Assembly: GCF_000248075.1 (NCBI RefSeq) | Contig: NZ_BAFB01000144.1 | Coordinates: forward strand, 1-61,144 | DNA length: 61,144 nucleotides | From: Gordonia otitidis NBRC 100426 | GTDB taxonomy: Bacteria; Actinomycetota; Actinomycetes; Mycobacteriales; Mycobacteriaceae | Direction of reading: 5' to 3' | Part shown: piece by piece, positions 20,637-48,714 of the stretch | Layout: every line of letters begins with the position of its first letter | How positions within the stretch are numbered: position 1 is the first letter of the stretch | Program-made: the position numbers and the translations under genes | The notes under the pieces: generated by a model | Database searches by the model: none | Seen by the model: the letters and a program-made list of their open reading frames with translations, nothing else | Told to the model about the DNA's origin: nothing

Positions 20637-20681
20637 ATGGGGACGTATCTGCTCGACGACCTCCGGGAGGACGACCGGTGA
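20637..20681 (+). CDS. Possible 14-codon leader peptide upstream of the transglutaminase gene
   Basis: ATG 20637 opens a short frame encoding MGTYLLDDLREDDR. Its TGA overlaps the GTG of the following large gene (GTGA), the same coupling seen at other junctions in the window. No ribosome-binding site is visible for the short frame itself, and the frame also carries the GGGAGG site used by the next gene. It may simply be chance. Confidence 0.25.
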   Translation: MGTYLLDDLREDDR

Positions 20682-23600
20682 CAATCAAAGTGGCGCTCGA
20701 ACATCGCACGGCATACGCGTTCGATCGACCGGTCAAGATCTACCCGCACGTGGTGCGCTTGCGTCCGGCCCCGCATTCGCGCACTCCGATCGAGGCGTAT
20801 TCGCTCAAGGTAGAGCCCGAGGGACACTTCCTGAACTGGCAGCAGGACGCGTTCAGCAATTATCAGGCGCGCCTTGTGTTTCCGGAGCCGTCGTCGTCGC
20901 TGTCGATCACCGTGAGTCTCGTCGCCGACCTCACGGCGATCAACCCGTTCGACTTCTTCATCGAGGACTGGGCCGAGGACTACGGATTCACCTATCCCGA
21001 CGAACTCCGCGAGGATCTCGAGGTCTACCTGCGGCCTGTCGGGGTCACCGAGGGTGAATTCTCGGGCGCTCCGGTGCATCCCGCTGTCGCGGAGTTCGCC
21101 GCAGCCAACAAGCCCACGTCGACCACGCGCATCATCGACTTTCTCGTGTCGCTGAACCAGGCCGTGCGCGACGCCGTCGGCTACACGGTCCGGCTCGAAC
21201 AGGGCGTGCAGACGCCGGAGTTCACGCTCTCGAGCGCCATCGGCTCGTGCCGCGACTCGGCGTGGCTGCTGGTGGCCCTGCTGCGTGAACTCGGTCTCGC
21301 CGCGCGTTTCGTGTCCGGCTACCTGGTGCAGCTGACCTCCGACGTGAAGTCACTCGACGGCCCATCGGGCCCCGCCGCCGACTTCACCGATCTGCACGCG
21401 TGGACCGAGGTCTATCTTCCCGGCGCGGGTTGGGTCGGCATGGACCCGACGTCAGGTCTGTTCGCGGGCGAGGGGCACATCCCGCTCGCCGCGACGCCGA
21501 CGCCCGGCGGCGCCGCTCCGATCACCGGTGCCACGGGACCGTGCCACGCGACGCTCGACTTCTCCAACACCGTCACCCGTTTCCACGAGGACCCTCGGGT
21601 TACGTTGCCCTACACCGAATCCCAGTGGGATCGGGTCGTCGAACTCGGTGCGGCGGTCGACGCGAAGATGGCCGAGAACGACGTCCGGCTCACGATGGGT
21701 GGTGAGCCGACGTTCGTCTCACTCGACAACCAGAGCGACCCGGAGTGGACCACCGCCGCCGACGGGCCGCACAAGCGGGAGCTGGCGTCGAAGCTTGCCG
21801 GCCGCCTCGCCGACGACTACGCGCCCACGGGCCTGGTGCAGCGCAGTCAGGGCAAGTGGTATCCGGGAGAACCGTTGCCGCGCTGGCAGATCGCTGTCAT
21901 GTGGCGGACCGACGGTCAGCCGATCTGGCGTCGACGTGACCTACTCGCCGACCCGTGGCAGACCAGGGCCAAGGCAGCCGAGGCGATGTCGCTCGAAGCG
22001 TCTGGACCGAAACCGGGTTCCGGTGCCGACCCGTCGGCCGAGAAACTGCTGTCGGCGTTCGCCTCCGCGCTGGGGCTGCCCGGCTCGCAGGTGATGCCCG
22101 CATTCGAGGATCCGTTGGTGCGGATGCGCGAGTTGTCGGCACTCCCGCCGGGCGACCCGGGTTCGGACCCCACACTCCCCGCGGCGCGTGCGGCGGCGTG
22201 GGCGAGTGCCGCGGCAGCGGCGGTCGACGCCGATTCCGACATCGAGCCGGCCGACGATTCCACCGAGGCGCGTCGTGAACTGCTCGCCTCGCTGGATGCG
22301 TCGGTCACCGACCCCACGGCATTCGTCCTGCCGCTGAGCCGTTCCGAGGACGGCACGGCGTGGCAGAGCGCACGCTGGACGACGCGGCGCGGACGCCTGG
22401 TGCTCACGCCCGGCACCTCGCCCGCTGGGCTGCGACTCCCGCTCAACTCGTTGTCGTGGGGTCCGGCGCCCGTCCTCTACGAAGCCGACCCCTCCGTACG
22501 CGCGGATCCGCTGCCCGACGATGTGGTAGAAGCACTGGGCCGCACCGTCACCGACGTCAGTCCCGCCGCCTTCGTGCCGCGCACCGCGCTGGTCGCCGAG
22601 AAGCGTGGAGACGTGTTGTACGTGTTCCTGCCGCCGACCGCCGAACTCGAGGAGTATCTGGCGATCGTCGAGATGATCGAGAATGCGGCTGCAGCGATCG
22701 ACACCCCGGTCGTCGTCGAGGGCTACGGCCCGCCGGCCGACGCCCGGCTCACGACGCTGACGGTGACCCCTGACCCGGGCGTCATCGAGGTCAACGTCCA
22801 GCCGACGAGCAGTTTCGCCGAGCAGGCCGAGCTGCTCGATTCGCTGTACGACCACGCGCGGCACGCCCGTCTGGGCACCGAGACGTTCGATCTCGATGGT
22901 AGCCACGGGGGCACCGGCGGCGGAAACCACATCACGCTCGGCGGTTCGACCCCCGCGGATTCGCCGCTGCTGCGCCGCCCGGACCTGTTGGTCTCGATGC
23001 TGACGTACTGGCAGCGCCACCCGTCGTTGTCCTACCTGTTCAGTGGCAAGTTCATCGGGACGACGTCGCAGGCGCCGCGCGCGGACGAGGGGCGCGAGTC
23101 GTCGCTCTACGAGATGGAGATCGCGTTCGCCGAGATCGACCGGCTCGCAGTGAAGGGAGAGCCTGCGCGCGGAGCTGACGCCCCGCCCAACCCGTGGGTC
23201 ACCGACCGCGCGTTGCGGCATCTGCTCACCGACATCACCGGCAACACCCACCGGGCCGAGTTCTGCATCGACAAGCTCTACAGTCCCGACTCGGCACGCG
23301 GCAGGCTCGGGCTGCTCGAACTGCGCGGATTCGAGATGCCCCCGCATCACCGCATGGCGATGGTGCAGTCGCTGCTCGTCCGTTCGCTGGTCTCGTGGTT
23401 CTGGGAGAAGCCCTACCGCAGCAGGCTCATCCGCCACGGCGCAGACCTGCACGGCAAGCATCTGCTGCCGCACTACGTCATCGCCGACATCGCACAGGTG
23501 GCAGAGGAACTCCGCGAGGCCGGCTATCCGTTCGACACCGCTTGGCTCGACCCCTTCACGGAATTCCGCTTCCCACGGCTCGGCACGGTCGCGATCCGCG

Positions 23601-23830
23601 AGTACGAGGTCGAGCTGCGCGGCGCCATCGAACCGTGGAACACGCTCGGTGAGGAGTCGACCGGCACCGGTACGGCGCGGTACGTCGACTCGTCGATCGA
23701 GCGCGTGCAGGTGCGTGTGCAGGGCGCCGAGGACGAGCGTTTCGTGTTGACGTGCAACGGCTATCCCATCCCGCTGACCAGCACGGGCAGACCGGGCGAA
23801 CGGGTCGCGGGAATCCGCTTCCGTGCCTGA
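20678..23830 (+). CDS. Transglutaminase-like/DUF2126 protein, ended early by an in-frame TGA
   Basis: The 1050-residue product has an N-terminal bacterial transglutaminase region and a long DUF2126 region. The cysteine-protease-type triad is visible as Cys in AIGSCRDSAW (about 190), His in TDLHAWTEVYLPG (about 239) and Asp in GMDPTSGLF. DUF2126 markers include MGGEPTFVSLDNQSDPEW, HGGTGGGNHITLGG and LRGFEMPPHHRM. The family counterpart is Rv2566. GTG 20678 follows GGGAGG. The reading frame stops at TGA 23828-23830 after FRA, exactly where I expect Trp of the conserved RAWQPPS segment, and about 104 more family-like codons follow in the same frame. So this is a truncated or read-through product. 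Confidence 0.85.
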   Translation: MTIKVALEHRTAYAFDRPVKIYPHVVRLRPAPHSRTPIEAYSLKVEPEGHFLNWQQDAFSNYQARLVFPEPSSSLSITVSLVADLTAINPFDFFIEDWAEDYGFTYPDELREDLEVYLRPVGVTEGEFSGAPVHPAVAEFAAANKPTSTTRIIDFLVSLNQAVRDAVGYTVRLEQGVQTPEFTLSSAIGSCRDSAWLLVALLRELGLAARFVSGYLVQLTSDVKSLDGPSGPAADFTDLHAWTEVYLPGAGWVGMDPTSGLFAGEGHIPLAATPTPGGAAPITGATGPCHATLDFSNTVTRFHEDPRVTLPYTESQWDRVVELGAAVDAKMAENDVRLTMGGEPTFVSLDNQSDPEWTTAADGPHKRELASKLAGRLADDYAPTGLVQRSQGKWYPGEPLPRWQIAVMWRTDGQPIWRRRDLLADPWQTRAKAAEAMSLEASGPKPGSGADPSAEKLLSAFASALGLPGSQVMPAFEDPLVRMRELSALPPGDPGSDPTLPAARAAAWASAAAAAVDADSDIEPADDSTEARRELLASLDASVTDPTAFVLPLSRSEDGTAWQSARWTTRRGRLVLTPGTSPAGLRLPLNSLSWGPAPVLYEADPSVRADPLPDDVVEALGRTVTDVSPAAFVPRTALVAEKRGDVLYVFLPPTAELEEYLAIVEMIENAAAAIDTPVVVEGYGPPADARLTTLTVTPDPGVIEVNVQPTSSFAEQAELLDSLYDHARHARLGTETFDLDGSHGGTGGGNHITLGGSTPADSPLLRRPDLLVSMLTYWQRHPSLSYLFSGKFIGTTSQAPRADEGRESSLYEMEIAFAEIDRLAVKGEPARGADAPPNPWVTDRALRHLLTDITGNTHRAEFCIDKLYSPDSARGRLGLLELRGFEMPPHHRMAMVQSLLVRSLVSWFWEKPYRSRLIRHGADLHGKHLLPHYVIADIAQVAEELREAGYPFDTAWLDPFTEFRFPRLGTVAIREYEVELRGAIEPWNTLGEESTGTGTARYVDSSIERVQVRVQGAEDERFVLTCNGYPIPLTSTGRPGERVAGIRFRA

Positions 23831-24145
23831 CAGCCGCCGAGTGCCCTGCACCCGACCATCAGCATCGACACACCACTGACCTTCGATCTGGTCGACACCC
23901 TGGCGGGTCGGTCCGTCGGTGGTGCGACCTACCACGTCGTGCATCCGGGTGGGCGCGCCTACGACCGCCCGCCGGTCAACGCCGTGGAGGCCGAGTCCCG
24001 GCGAAACGGCCGATTCGAGGCCGCCGGGCACACCAGCGGCTCCGTCGACGTCGGTCTCCTGCGTGAGCGGGTCGCCCGCATGGCCACCGACAGTGGGGTC
24101 CCGACGATCCTGGATCTGCGCCGGGCACGTACAGTTCTTCGGTGA
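23831..24145 (+). pseudogene. In-frame C-terminal remainder of the DUF2126 gene after the TGA
   Basis: Directly after TGA 23828-23830, the same frame continues for 104 codons: QPPSALHPTISID, LTFDLVDTLAGRSVGGATYHV, VHPGGRAYDRPPVNAVEAESRR and GRFEAAGHTSG. These match the conserved end of DUF2126 proteins as I know them. The frame ends at TGA 24143-24145, which overlaps the next gene's GTG by four bases, as expected for the original gene end. A single base change (TGG to TGA) would explain the break. An ATG at 23939 could start only a fragment. Confidence 0.8.
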
Positions 24146-26889
24146 CTGTTTCAGCGGGTGGCGGTGTGCCCGCGGTGTTCGACAGATACCGGTCCGACGG
24201 TTACACGCTGTTCGATCTCGGGCAGCTGCGGGACGGTGTCGCACCGGCTGCCGCGCGCAATCATTACGACGAGGTACTCGACGCCACGGGCGTGACCCGG
24301 CCGGCATGGGAAGACCTCGTCGCGGGCTATGAGCTGCGGGGCGACGCCCGACTGCGCGCCTCGGCCGCCCGCCTGGCGTCGGCGGTCTCCGACGAGGGCG
24401 TGGTCTACAACCAGGTCGAGGGCACCACGACCGTCCCGCGTCCGTGGCTGCTCGACGCCGTGCCGCTGATCGTCGACGGCGTCGAATGGGCAGAACTGGA
24501 AAAGGCGATCACCCAGCGTTCGACGCTGCTCGATCTGATCCTGCGCGACATCTACCGCGACCAGAAGACCATCAACGCTGGCCTGATCCCGCCCGAGATG
24601 GTCTTCGGCCACCCGGGCTACATTCGCAAGGCCGCTCGGCTGGAGGTCGCGGGCCCGCATGCACTGTTCCTGCACGCCCTCGACCTCGGACGGCTCTCGG
24701 ATGGGACCTTCGCCGTCTACGGCGACCGCACGCAGGCGCCGTCGGGAGTCGGGTTCGCCATCGCCGACAGGCGACTGATCTCACGCACGTTCCCGCAACT
24801 GTTCCAACGCTGCGCACCCCGCCCGATGTCCACCTTCGCGGGCACGCTGCGGCTCGCGCTGACCGACTACGCCCCGCCTGGCGTCGACGACCCGACAGTC
24901 GCGGTGTTCAGTCCCGGCAGCATGTCCGAGACCTTCTTCGACCAGGCGTATCTGGCGTCGGTCCTCGGTTTCCCGCTGGTCGAGGGCGCCGACCTCACCG
25001 TCCGCGACGGTGCGCTCTACATGCGGTCTCTCGGCAAGTACAAGCGGGTCGACGTCCTGCTGCGCCGCGTCGACGCCGCCTACTGCGATCCACTCGATCT
25101 ACGAACCAACTCACGGCTCGGCGTCGCCGGCCTCGTCGAGGCCATCTCGCGCGGAAACGTCACCGTCGTCAACACACTTGGCAGCGGGGTGCTCGAGAAT
25201 CCGGCTTTGAACACCGTGCTGGCCAAGGTCGCACCGATGCTCATCGACGAGGAACTCGCACTCGGGGCCGTACCCACGTACTGGGCGGGGGATGCGTCCG
25301 ACCGTTCGAAGATGCTTGCGTCTCTCGACTCGCTCGTCCTGACGAACTTCCGCACGGGAGAGGAATTCGTGGGTCCTGCGACCGATTCGGCCACCAAGGA
25401 CACGCTGCGCGCGCGGATCAGCGCGGACACGTGGCAGTGGGTGGGCCGGGAGGTCGAGGCCTACTCGGTCGCGCCGAGTCTGACCGAGGCTGCGCTGCCG
25501 ACACAGGGCCGTGGGACCCTTCGCGCCGCGCCGGTGTCGGTGCGTGCGTTCTCGGTCACGCAGGGTCCCACCTACGCGGTGATGCCCGGCGGGTTGGGAT
25601 CGGTTCTCGCCGACGGCGTGATAGGCGCATCGCTGGCCTCCATCGCAGCCAAGGACATCTGGGTCACCAATCCGGATGTGGGAGGCCATGTCTCGCGGCG
25701 CACGGAACTACGCGGAGGCGAACCCGACGACGTGGTCACCATCGCCGCACGGCCCACCTCGACCAGCTACTCAGACATCGCCGCGGCGGCGAGCCCCCGT
25801 GTGCTAGCCGACATGTTCTGGTTCGGCCGATACGGGGAGCGCACCGAGTCGGTCACCCGGTTGGCCAAGGTCGCGCGCGAGCGCTACCAGGACTTCCAGT
25901 ACCGACCGTGGATGTCGGGGACCGCCGCCGTGCCGTTGTTCCTGCACGCGGTCGCCGAAGTGACCGGTACCGCAGGTCTCCTCGGTACCCGCGAGTCGCT
26001 GCTCGACGACGACTCGGCCCTGTCGTCGCTCGAACAGGTCAACGAGGCGATAGTCAAGATCGCCGAACTGACCGTCAACCGCTACACGCCCGGCACCATC
26101 GCACATTCGACGGAACGACTCGTCGCCACCGCTCGAGCCGTCCGCGATCAGATGTCGACGAGCACCTGGATGGTGCTCACACCCATGGAGCGGGCACTCG
26201 AGTCGATGACCCGCCAGATCGAACGTGCGCGCGACGACGTCGGAGCGGGCACAGGGGTCTTCGGCGACGCAGCACTCGATCTCGGACCCGACCTCGCCCG
26301 CACCCACGAGAACATCCTGCACGGCGCTCTCGCGCTGTCGGGCCTGCAGGCCGAGTCGATGGTCCACGACGCCGCATGGCTGCTCATGGACCTCGGCAGG
26401 CGCATCGAGCGGGTCATCACCCTCGCGGACCTCACCAGATCGCTGTTCGCCCAGGAACATCCCCTCGACATGGAGCAGACCCTGCTGGAATCGTTCCTCA
26501 GTGCCACTGAATCGTCGGTGATCTACCGACGACGCAACCGTGGTCTCTACCGCGCGGAAGCCGTCGCAGAACTGCTCATGTTCGACGAGACGAACCCGCG
26601 CGCGATGATCTACCAGCTCAGCAGGATGCGCGATGATCTCACCGCGCTACCCGAAGCGATACGCTCGGCGGCGGCCGAACGTGCCGTCGAGGAGATGGCA
26701 GCAGAGCTACGACGGTGTGATCCCGCCGATCTCAGCCACGTCGGCGCGGACGGAACGCGCGCCGACCTCGTCGAACTGACGCGTGCGCTCCGCGACCACG
26801 CCCGCGAGCTCTCCGATCTGCTCAACCGCACACGATTCGCGCCACCCCGTACCGCGCAACCGATCTGGGGAGGGGGCGGTCCGCTGTGA
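24142..26889 (+). CDS. Circularly permuted ATP-grasp plus alpha-E domain protein
   Basis: The 915-residue product fuses two domains that are separate genes in many bacteria. Residues about 60-470 form the circularly permuted ATP-grasp (DUF404/DUF407) type, with GVVYNQVEG, LDLILRDIYRDQ, FGHPGYIRKA, YGDRTQAPSGVGFA, NTLGSGVLENPAL and LLIDEELALG-like elements. The C-terminal third is an alpha-E (DUF403) helical domain with ADMFWFGRYGERTESVTRLAK and MDLGRRIERVITLADL. ATP-grasp members of this type are predicted amide- or peptide-bond-forming enzymes. The counterpart is Rv2567. It is coupled by 4-bp overlaps to both neighbours, so the three proteins are likely made together. Confidence 0.88.
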   Translation: MTVSAGGGVPAVFDRYRSDGYTLFDLGQLRDGVAPAAARNHYDEVLDATGVTRPAWEDLVAGYELRGDARLRASAARLASAVSDEGVVYNQVEGTTTVPRPWLLDAVPLIVDGVEWAELEKAITQRSTLLDLILRDIYRDQKTINAGLIPPEMVFGHPGYIRKAARLEVAGPHALFLHALDLGRLSDGTFAVYGDRTQAPSGVGFAIADRRLISRTFPQLFQRCAPRPMSTFAGTLRLALTDYAPPGVDDPTVAVFSPGSMSETFFDQAYLASVLGFPLVEGADLTVRDGALYMRSLGKYKRVDVLLRRVDAAYCDPLDLRTNSRLGVAGLVEAISRGNVTVVNTLGSGVLENPALNTVLAKVAPMLIDEELALGAVPTYWAGDASDRSKMLASLDSLVLTNFRTGEEFVGPATDSATKDTLRARISADTWQWVGREVEAYSVAPSLTEAALPTQGRGTLRAAPVSVRAFSVTQGPTYAVMPGGLGSVLADGVIGASLASIAAKDIWVTNPDVGGHVSRRTELRGGEPDDVVTIAARPTSTSYSDIAAAASPRVLADMFWFGRYGERTESVTRLAKVARERYQDFQYRPWMSGTAAVPLFLHAVAEVTGTAGLLGTRESLLDDDSALSSLEQVNEAIVKIAELTVNRYTPGTIAHSTERLVATARAVRDQMSTSTWMVLTPMERALESMTRQIERARDDVGAGTGVFGDAALDLGPDLARTHENILHGALALSGLQAESMVHDAAWLLMDLGRRIERVITLADLTRSLFAQEHPLDMEQTLLESFLSATESSVIYRRRNRGLYRAEAVAELLMFDETNPRAMIYQLSRMRDDLTALPEAIRSAAAERAVEEMAAELRRCDPADLSHVGADGTRADLVELTRALRDHARELSDLLNRTRFAPPRTAQPIWGGGGPL

Positions 26890-41473: not shown

Positions 41474-42827
41474 TCAGGCAGCCAACGCCGCCGTGCGGTT
41501 CGGCGACACATGCACCGGCGCAGTGCCGAGGTCGTCGGTCGCGACCTCCTTGGTTTCTCTGGCCGTGAGCGCCGCCGCGGTCGCGATCAGGCAGATCGTC
41601 GCGGTGAACACGCTGATCACCACCCAACCGCCGTCTCCGACGCCCCCGAGTGCGGTCACGATCGACGGAGCGAAGCCCGCCATGAGGAAGCCGAGTTGGG
41701 TACCGATGGCCAGACCGGAGAAACGGACGCGGGTGGAGAACATCTCGCCGTAGAAGGCGGGCCAGACGGCGTTGGCCGCCGCGTAACCGAACGAGAACGT
41801 GAGTACCGCGAGCACGAAGGTCAGCAGGTGATTGCTCTGGCCCATCGACAACATGTAGAAGGGCATCAGGATCGCTGACGAGAGCGCACCGTAGATGAAG
41901 ACCGGCTTGCGGCCGATCCTGTCGGCGAGGGCACCGAACAGCGGTTGCGTGATGAGCGCGCCGATGTTGGCCACGACGACGAGCCACAGGGTCAGGCCGG
42001 CGTCGAGTCCCACGTGCTTGCCGTAGGCGAGTGCGAGGTTGGCGAACACGGTCGACACCGCGGCGATGAACGCGCACAGCACTACTCGGACGACCGAACG
42101 CCACTGGTCGCGCATCAGAGGAACGAGGGGCATCCGTGCGATCTCGCCGGATTCGCGGGCCTCGGTGAACTGGGGCGTCTCGTGCAGGCGACGGCGGATG
42201 AAGTACGCGACGAGGACCACGACGGCCGAGAGCCAGAACGGAACCCGCCAACCCCATGAGTACTTCGCGTCGTCGGGGAGGGCCATGAACGGGATCAGCA
42301 CCAGCGAGGCCAGGATCAATCCGCCCTGCGTTCCGGTCAACGTCCACGAGGTGAAGAACGCACGCCGGTGGTCCGGAGCGTGTTCGAGAGCCAACGAACT
42401 CGCGCCCGCCTGTTCACCGGCGGCCGAAAAGCCCTGCAGCAGACGGCAGATCACGAGCAGGATGGGAGCAAGCCAGCCGATCTGACTGAACGTCGGTAGG
42501 CAGCCGATGACGAACGTCGACACTCCCATCAGCACGAGCGTGAACATCAACACCCTCTGGCGGCCGATGCGATCGCCGAAGTGGGCCGAGGATGAGCGCT
42601 CCGATCGGGCGCGCGATGTAGGCGACACCGAACGTCGCGAACGACATCACCAGCGCCGCATTGTCGTCGGACGGGAAGAAGATGTGCGGGAAGATCAGGG
42701 CTGCGGCGGAGCCGAACAGGAAGAAGTCGTAGTACTCGACGGCGCTGCCCATGAACCCCGCGAGTGCGGCATGTCGTGGTGTGCGTTTCCCGACGGCTCC
42801 GGTGCCGTCGGCCTGGGTGGTGGTCAT
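41474..42827 (-). pseudogene. MHS-family permease (shikimate/quinate-type), frameshifted
   Basis: This is a 12-helix metabolite:H+ symporter, 450 residues if the frame is restored. The N-terminal part runs from ATG 42827 (MTTTQADGTG, with GAGGAG upstream) through GFMGSAVEYYDFFLFG and ARPIGALILG. The rest continues in another frame with HFGDRIGRQRVLMFTL, the family's GxxxDRxGR loop, and PLFGALADRIGRKP. The break lies at about 42583-42585, where one extra base (GGG instead of GG on the plus strand) shifts the frame. The total of 1354 bases is one more than a multiple of three. Either the gene is newly inactivated or the base is a sequence error. Context suggests shikimate or quinate uptake. Confidence 0.85.
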
Positions 42828-48215: not shown

Positions 48216-48695
48216 GTGAAGCAATCCGGAACGCGGCACAAGGCCCGTCGGCGTGCGGTGGATCTGCTGTTCGAAGCGGAGGCCAAGCAGGTCAGTCCCG
48301 CGCAGCTCGTTGCCGAACGTCGTCAGTTCGTGCGCGACGACGAGAGCGTGGGCGAGATCCACGAGTACACCGCGACGGTCATCGAAGGCCTTGCCGACGA
48401 CCAGTCGCAGATCGACGCCGTGGTGTCGTCGCATCTGCGCGGCTGGACACTCGAGCGGCTGCCCGCCGTCGACCGTGCGATCCTGCGTCTGGCGACGTGG
48501 GAGCTGTTCAACTCGACCGACGTCGACCCGATAGTCATCGTCGACGAGGCCGTCGAACTCGCGAAGGAACTCTCGACCGACGATTCACCCGCCTTCGTCA
48601 ACGGCGTGCTGGCGAAGATCGCCGAACTGGCGCCGCAGGTACGGGCTGCGCAGGCCGCAGGCTCCGATTCGGGTGGCAAAGCTACCGACGTGTAA
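48216..48695 (+). CDS. nusB: Transcription antitermination factor NusB
   Basis: NusB binds boxA RNA with NusE (S10) in rRNA antitermination. The 159-residue product has the all-helical NusB fold: [35 protein letters not shown] and [28 protein letters not shown]. The Ala/Gly-rich tail is not part of the fold. GTG 48216 starts 30 bases after efp. Its TAA overlaps a possible promoter for the pyr operon. Confidence 0.96.
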
Positions 48696-48698
48696 AGT
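48693..48698 (+). promoter_or_regulatory. Candidate -10 box for the pyr operon
   Basis: TAAAGT fits TANNNT, includes the nusB stop codon, and would start a leader of about 55 bases that holds the PyrR hairpin. No convincing -35 box is visible. Confidence 0.35.
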
Positions 48699-48714
48699 GT
48701 CGCGGTGACAGACA

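Follow-up and report, generated by a model that had tools for sequence, protein, structure and literature searches.

Why a gene of the DUF2126 (PF09899) family, which joins a transglutaminase part to a predicted amidoligase, should be cut by an in-frame stop codon, and what then becomes of the genes behind it, is the question raised by contig NZ_BAFB01000144.1 of Gordonia otitidis NBRC 100426. This stretch of 61,144 nucleotides, referred to here as the window, is contig C130 of a 5.29 Mb draft assembly in 272 contigs (completeness 100, contamination 0.25). For the stop itself, we lean towards a real and very recent single-base nonsense allele, private to the strain, in which Trp codon 1051 became UGA. 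With greater confidence, we consider that the last codons of the gene do double duty as the leaderless promoter of the downstream operon, a stretch that selection retains when the gene itself dies. The features on which the argument rests are the following.

20678 to 23830, forward strand: truncated frame (open frame and Pfam), comprising the N and core domains of a transglutaminase followed by DUF2126, whose profile is matched as far as position 735 of 826
23828 to 23830, forward strand: TGA within the frame, where all other sequences that span the codon (114 of 114) encode Trp
23831 to 24145, forward strand: the same frame past the TGA, 104 codons, DUF2126 profile positions 737 to 826, constrained on the window branch
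24130 to 24135, forward strand: TACAGT, probable -10 element of a leaderless promoter, within the 3' codons of the DUF2126 gene and 6 nt before the GTG at 24142
24142 to 26889, forward strand: intact downstream gene, circularly permuted ATP-grasp and alpha-E, with the GTG at 24142 as predicted transcription start and start codon
26886 to 27842, forward strand: intact transglutaminase-like gene, third in the cluster

The interrupted frame starts with the GTG at 20678 and reaches its TGA directly after the residues FRA. Beyond this stop, the frame remains open for 104 codons and ends with a TGA at 24143-24145, which overlaps the GTG of the next gene in the sequence GTGA. The DUF2126 profile matches on both sides of the stop, from 2 to 735 upstream (E 5.7e-304) and from 737 to 826 downstream (E 6.7e-33), so that the pieces jointly span positions 2-826 except for one; the Pfam domains Bact_transglu_N and Transglut_core are also present. 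As the matched parts of the profile adjoin, the two pieces are, judged by their sequence, one family member. The original prediction, which had been made from the letters of the window, had likewise described family sequence running on past the stop, and the peptides that it quoted were correct. The ATP-grasp and alpha-E parts that follow form a single fused gene according to Pfam.

In the intact relatives G009 (95% identical) and G017 (93%), the gene is a single open frame of 1155 codons with TGG at the position of the TGA, one base apart from it, in line with the single base change that had been proposed. Among 110 loci collected, 105 span the codon (5 do not), of which 104, including 19 from the same genus, encode Trp and one, the window's own copy, has a stop. 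Ten further same-genus copies all have TGG (10/10), bringing the other covering sequences to 114, although some species may be represented twice. None of these 114 has TGA at codon 1051, whereas a stop conserved in relatives would be expected of programmed read-through, and the case named in the original prediction as able to overturn it, relatives ending at the same TGA, was thus not encountered. In one sequence among the 104 with Trp (L067), the alignment runs into a stop at its far end, 100 residues past the Trp. In the aligned natural proteins, W1051 (G009 numbering) is invariant in 60/60, as are 15 later residues, and the part lost after the TGA would thus belong to the core of the family; the claim that the family has Trp here is therefore stronger than first put. 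The window copy departs from the family in lacking an uninterrupted C-terminal part with this Trp. By record titles among the best 80 of 591 loci, DUF2126 loci come from actinobacteria, proteobacteria, Flavobacteriaceae, Verrucomicrobia and others. Within the same 80, the closest named locus to the core segment is that of Williamsia maris (81%), while records of Mycobacterium, Mycolicibacterium, Nocardia and Rhodococcus reach at most 72%.

How long the stop may have existed was examined by assigning changes to branches, comparing the window copy with the intact G009 and G017. The ratio of nonsynonymous to synonymous substitution rates (dN/dS) of the window copy against these two is 0.045 and 0.055, respectively, before the TGA, and 0.018 and 0.014 after it. 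Before the TGA, the window branch carries 150 synonymous and 31 nonsynonymous changes, as compared to 152/35 for G009 and 154/52 for G017. As the proportion of nonsynonymous changes resembles that of the other two branches, the upstream part gives no sign of relaxation on the window branch. After the TGA, the window branch carries 19 synonymous and no nonsynonymous changes (7/2 for G009, 14/2 for G017), while free drift over the whole branch would have given about 57 nonsynonymous changes. If one assumes free drift at the synonymous rate, the time without constraint would not exceed roughly 5% of the branch (5.3% as the 95% bound). These counts do not suit an old pseudogene, but would be produced alike by a stop of very recent origin, by an error and by effective read-through. 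The 19/0 pattern should thus be read as evidence of purifying selection on the downstream part and not as fixing the age of the stop.

Beyond coding sequence, the last codons of the gene probably hold a further signal. The tail common to four same-genus genomes in which the DUF2126 gene is deleted (described below) consists of TACAGT, 6 nt and a GTG that is the start of the ATP-grasp/alpha-E gene, and both hexamer and spacing are identical in 24/24 same-genus loci that show the junction. Of 59 genus genomes, 35 contain a single copy of a 20-base pattern built on this tail, all four deletion genomes being among them, and 24 have no copy; a control pattern is absent from all 59. Within an initial set of 37 genomes, that of the window included, the pattern accompanies the downstream gene in 25 of 26 cases and is found in 0 of the 11 genomes that lack that gene; the exception, G025, has DUF2126 and the operon without the exact pattern. 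In the other 22 genomes, it is present in exactly the 10 that have DUF2126. Codon choice tells the same: of 803 columns of the gene with a conserved residue, 103 use a single codon, only 3 of which have a codon usage below 0.25, and these three rare invariant codons are adjacent, namely GCA, CGT and ACA at 1150-1152 (19/19 genomes), followed by GTT in 18/19.

Ahead of the start codons of 288 long frames of the genome, TANNNT is most frequent at distances of 6 nt (14 cases) and 7 nt (12 cases), as compared to 0-5 cases at other distances. The hexamer at the junction lies at one of these two distances and, within the genus, is conserved also where the host gene is gone. A sigma-70 scan gave no match at the junction. 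Based on conservation within the genus and survival after deletion of the gene, the 3' end of DUF2126 thus probably contains a predicted leaderless promoter of the next gene, and we consider it likely that promoter function fixes the synonymous choice in these last codons. When the gene dies, be it by deletion in the relatives or by nonsense mutation here, selection would keep the stretch (some 20 bp in G012 and G033), so that the gene can be shed without silencing the operon. The GTGA junction, first described as an overlap like those at other junctions, is indeed an overlap (GTG 24142, TGA 24143-24145), yet is probably not merely an ordinary one, being also the site of promoter and start.

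The history of the gene in the genus is one of frequent loss. Long DUF2126 matches are found in 21 of 36 same-genus genomes (as frame-shifted pieces in G023 and across two contigs in G027) and in none of the remaining 15. Of 22 further same-genus genomes, 10 have DUF2126 and 12 have no long match. The ATP-grasp/alpha-E gene is present over most of its length in 25/36 (in two pieces in G027 and G033). In G002, G012, G018 and G033, both aspS and the ATP-grasp/alpha-E gene are in place, and the DUF2126 gene between them is gone except for 3' remains. The relic in G018 comprises 62 C-terminal DUF2126 codons at 82% identity (L122, 6460-6645, reverse strand); that of G002 is shorter, and G012 and G033 retain little that can be recognised upstream of the promoter tail. 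An aspS tree of 27 rows, with 24 inner branches of which 7 are starred and 8 open, places G012 next to an intact genome and G033 at a different position; G018 and G002 occupy a third, in one small clade that also includes an intact genome. These three separate placements suggest at least three independent losses, if the gene was never regained, and a nonsense allele in the window is in keeping with such a record. Not counted as a loss is the DUF2126 copy of G023 (L119, 7284-10787, reverse strand), which carries three one-base gains at G/C stretches and can be either a pseudogene or a product of sequencing error.

For the strain itself, we propose that one base change turned the invariant Trp codon 1051 of the transglutaminase/amidoligase gene into UGA, where the ribosome would terminate and release a protein of 1050 residues. 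The structure modelled for the intact protein of G009 (mean predicted local distance difference test, pLDDT, 80.5; predicted template modelling score, pTM, 0.80) places residue 1051 after a strand at 1041-1049, such that truncation there would remove the strands 1067-1073 and 1078-1085 together with the end helices. The short protein would thus be without the last two strands of its C-terminal beta domain and is probably inactive. In the model, the glutamine-synthetase-like match covers mostly residues 305-1012, with several rows reaching 1049-1116, and the modelled protein accordingly shows a glutamine-synthetase-like ligase fold; it should be noted that VIA-align rows beyond residue 1012 barely probe the C-terminal beta domain. 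The next gene would still be made, since the interrupted gene would carry within its 3' end the leaderless promoter (TACAGT, 6 nt, GTG) that serves this neighbour. The strain has probably lost the ligase, while the ATP-grasp/alpha-E gene and the second transglutaminase gene are intact and probably expressed. The nonsense codon need not, in other words, silence the operon. Our first idea had been a polar effect, by loss of translational coupling at the early stop, and this is weakened by the promoter evidence.

The foremost competitor to a real nonsense allele is that the natural gene is intact and that the TGA came about as an error of base calling or assembly, or by mutation in the one clone sequenced. 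We regard this as a serious possibility, if short of an even chance. Such an error predicts the absence of nonsynonymous changes after the TGA, and a draft in 272 contigs leaves room for it. To this should be added the outcome of a scan for lesions, in which the window and contigs C209, C268 and C104 (434 kb, 289 genes) were compared with G009, using stricter filters after a first pass made noisy by start extensions and antisense frames. The scan flagged 9 split and 6 stop rows, of which 5 splits and 1 stop, the TGA, were kept. Four splits were set aside by eye as antisense, as upstream extensions or as unclear, and five stop rows in four frames were set aside, one frame having been shown to be an artefact and three lying against longer frames, one of these regions being less clear-cut. 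The five credible frame breaks are all in Pfam-named genes (MFS, acyl-CoA dehydrogenase, 4HBT, nitronate monooxygenase and alpha/beta hydrolase), and four are one-base gains at C runs. The 4HBT split is the weakest of these, given 74-80% identity and a position near a contig end. In the window, the MFS transporter (41474-42827, reverse strand) has gained one base in a short run of C near 42584, with copies being intact in G009 and G017; the other four breaks lie on C209, C268 and C104 (L172-L191), three of them one-base C-run gains, as either an error-prone draft or a decaying strain would show. The reciprocal scan of 282 genes found no split and flagged, prior to any review of single rows, 5 stop rows in 3 frames, and the contrast of five splits to none is suggestive only. 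Yet the type of error to be suspected from these breaks is the homopolymer indel, whereas the TGA is a substitution outside any run and the only one of the six flagged stop rows judged credible in 289 genes. Moreover, 182 domain matches elsewhere in the genome (64 AMP-binding, 87 ABC and 31 Aldedh) contain no internal stop, and the completeness and contamination values of the assembly speak for its quality.

A functional leaky stop, at which UGA-C is read through at some level with Trp inserted by a near-cognate tRNA to yield short and long forms, we hold to be improbable. The continued constraint on the downstream part (19/0) would suit it, and the available text of PMC7918605 describes many bacterial in-frame stops with dN/dS < 1, and cites that Trp is rarely inserted at UGA and that a UGA mutant of Bacillus subtilis showed 6% read-through. 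The same text, however, places the persistence of in-frame stops on the time scale of polymorphism and takes the majority to be something other than functional recoding, and no relative examined has TGA at the codon. With RF2 (prfB) intact, no suppressor among the tRNAs found and no further gene credibly interrupted by UGA among the 289 compared, nothing supports a programmed stop, even though near-cognate read-through would need neither a missing RF2 nor a suppressor. Of the three options offered in the original prediction, recent nonsense mutation and sequence error thus remain, while the leaky UGA-C has no positive support. Genome-wide recoding of UGA is rejected, as RF2 is intact and the sole Trp tRNA found has the anticodon CCA, with none having UCA. 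ARAGORN confirmed 46 of 47 RF00005 matches, this Trp tRNA included; the 47th (L171, 101-157, reverse strand, contig C72), which ARAGORN did not confirm, is partial, with no acceptor stem and an anticodon loop read as UGC. No UCA-anticodon or suppressor tRNA was found among the RF00005/ARAGORN tRNAs of the genome, a set that does not cover the selenocysteine tRNA family (a separate Rfam model, not searched). Selenocysteine at the TGA is unlikely, since the relatives have Trp and not Cys. A second pair of apparent Trp-to-stop codons (C104, 44.77-44.82 kb), at first sight in favour of recoding, was dismissed, since the stretch extends an endonuclease III frame upstream and runs antisense to the gene of a carbonic anhydrase. 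That the 3' part is expressed alone, by re-initiation or from an internal start, we consider highly improbable: it is open and constrained, but the relatives produce it within one protein, and while G018 keeps its relic, G012 and G033 retain little beyond the promoter core, so that what these two genomes conserve is not the C-terminal peptide.

Returning to the recent nonsense allele and the nested promoter, several points that weigh against this account need to be considered. Most of the glutamine-synthetase-like region of the model precedes the stop, and the short form may thus keep residual activity. The base itself rests on one assembly of one strain, in which a real allele and an error are not separated, and the five credible frame-breaking indels in that assembly make an error more likely; functional read-through or error would satisfy the age bound equally well. 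As for the promoter, the pattern TANNNT-6-GTGA is not rare by itself, with 2 occurrences in the window as compared to 1.0 expected. Outside the genus, TANNNT lies 5-8 nt before an in-frame start in only 9/65 loci, for example in Williamsia maris (TACGGT, 6 nt), with 56 being without it, and by these sequences the element is not general for the DUF2126 family. The second TANNNT-6-GTGA match of the window is at 48693-48708 (forward strand). Even so, the nested promoter is better supported than a leaky stop.

Taken by itself, the stop would be nothing unusual: the gene is one that members of the genus frequently shed, and here it has either a private lesion of very recent date or an error. More useful, and more deserving of further attention, is the probable leaderless promoter nested in it. 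As at least three independent deletions appear to spare the same 20 bp, the genus offers a natural experiment in which a nested promoter limits where a dying gene is cut. The last codons of such genes may accordingly be conserved for the neighbour and not for the protein.

As to known systems, Rv2566-type proteins are described in the accessible part of PMC2588565 as a transglutaminase-like domain fused to a carboxylate-amine ligase, and from the domain make-up we infer that PF09899 is the Rv2566 family. Compared with these fusions, the window copy is set apart by ending at residue 1050, where the 114 other covering copies continue with Trp. In the full-text collection searched, we found no paper that pairs DUF2126 with transglutaminase. 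Operons of transglutaminase, ATP-grasp and alpha-E genes are presented as a possible peptide-synthesis system in the available portion of PMC5666114, which cites Iyer et al. (2009). The window shares this neighbourhood and differs from the operons as given there in that ATP-grasp and alpha-E are fused in one gene; by analogy with the cited papers, the cluster may have a peptide-synthesis or ligase function. Like the in-frame stops in the available text of PMC7918605, the present case is a single stop with purifying selection still visible, but unlike them, it is not found in at least two species, which that study required so as to minimise artefacts. For Mycobacterium tuberculosis, PMC3898074, in the portion available, reports a TANNNT -10 element 7-12 bp upstream of starts and that a quarter of the genes with a primary start are leaderless. 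The junction resembles these leaderless mRNAs in having TANNNT, no -35 consensus and a predicted transcription start at the start codon, and it differs from the cases given there in that the element lies within the last codons of the upstream gene and outlasts the deletion of that gene.

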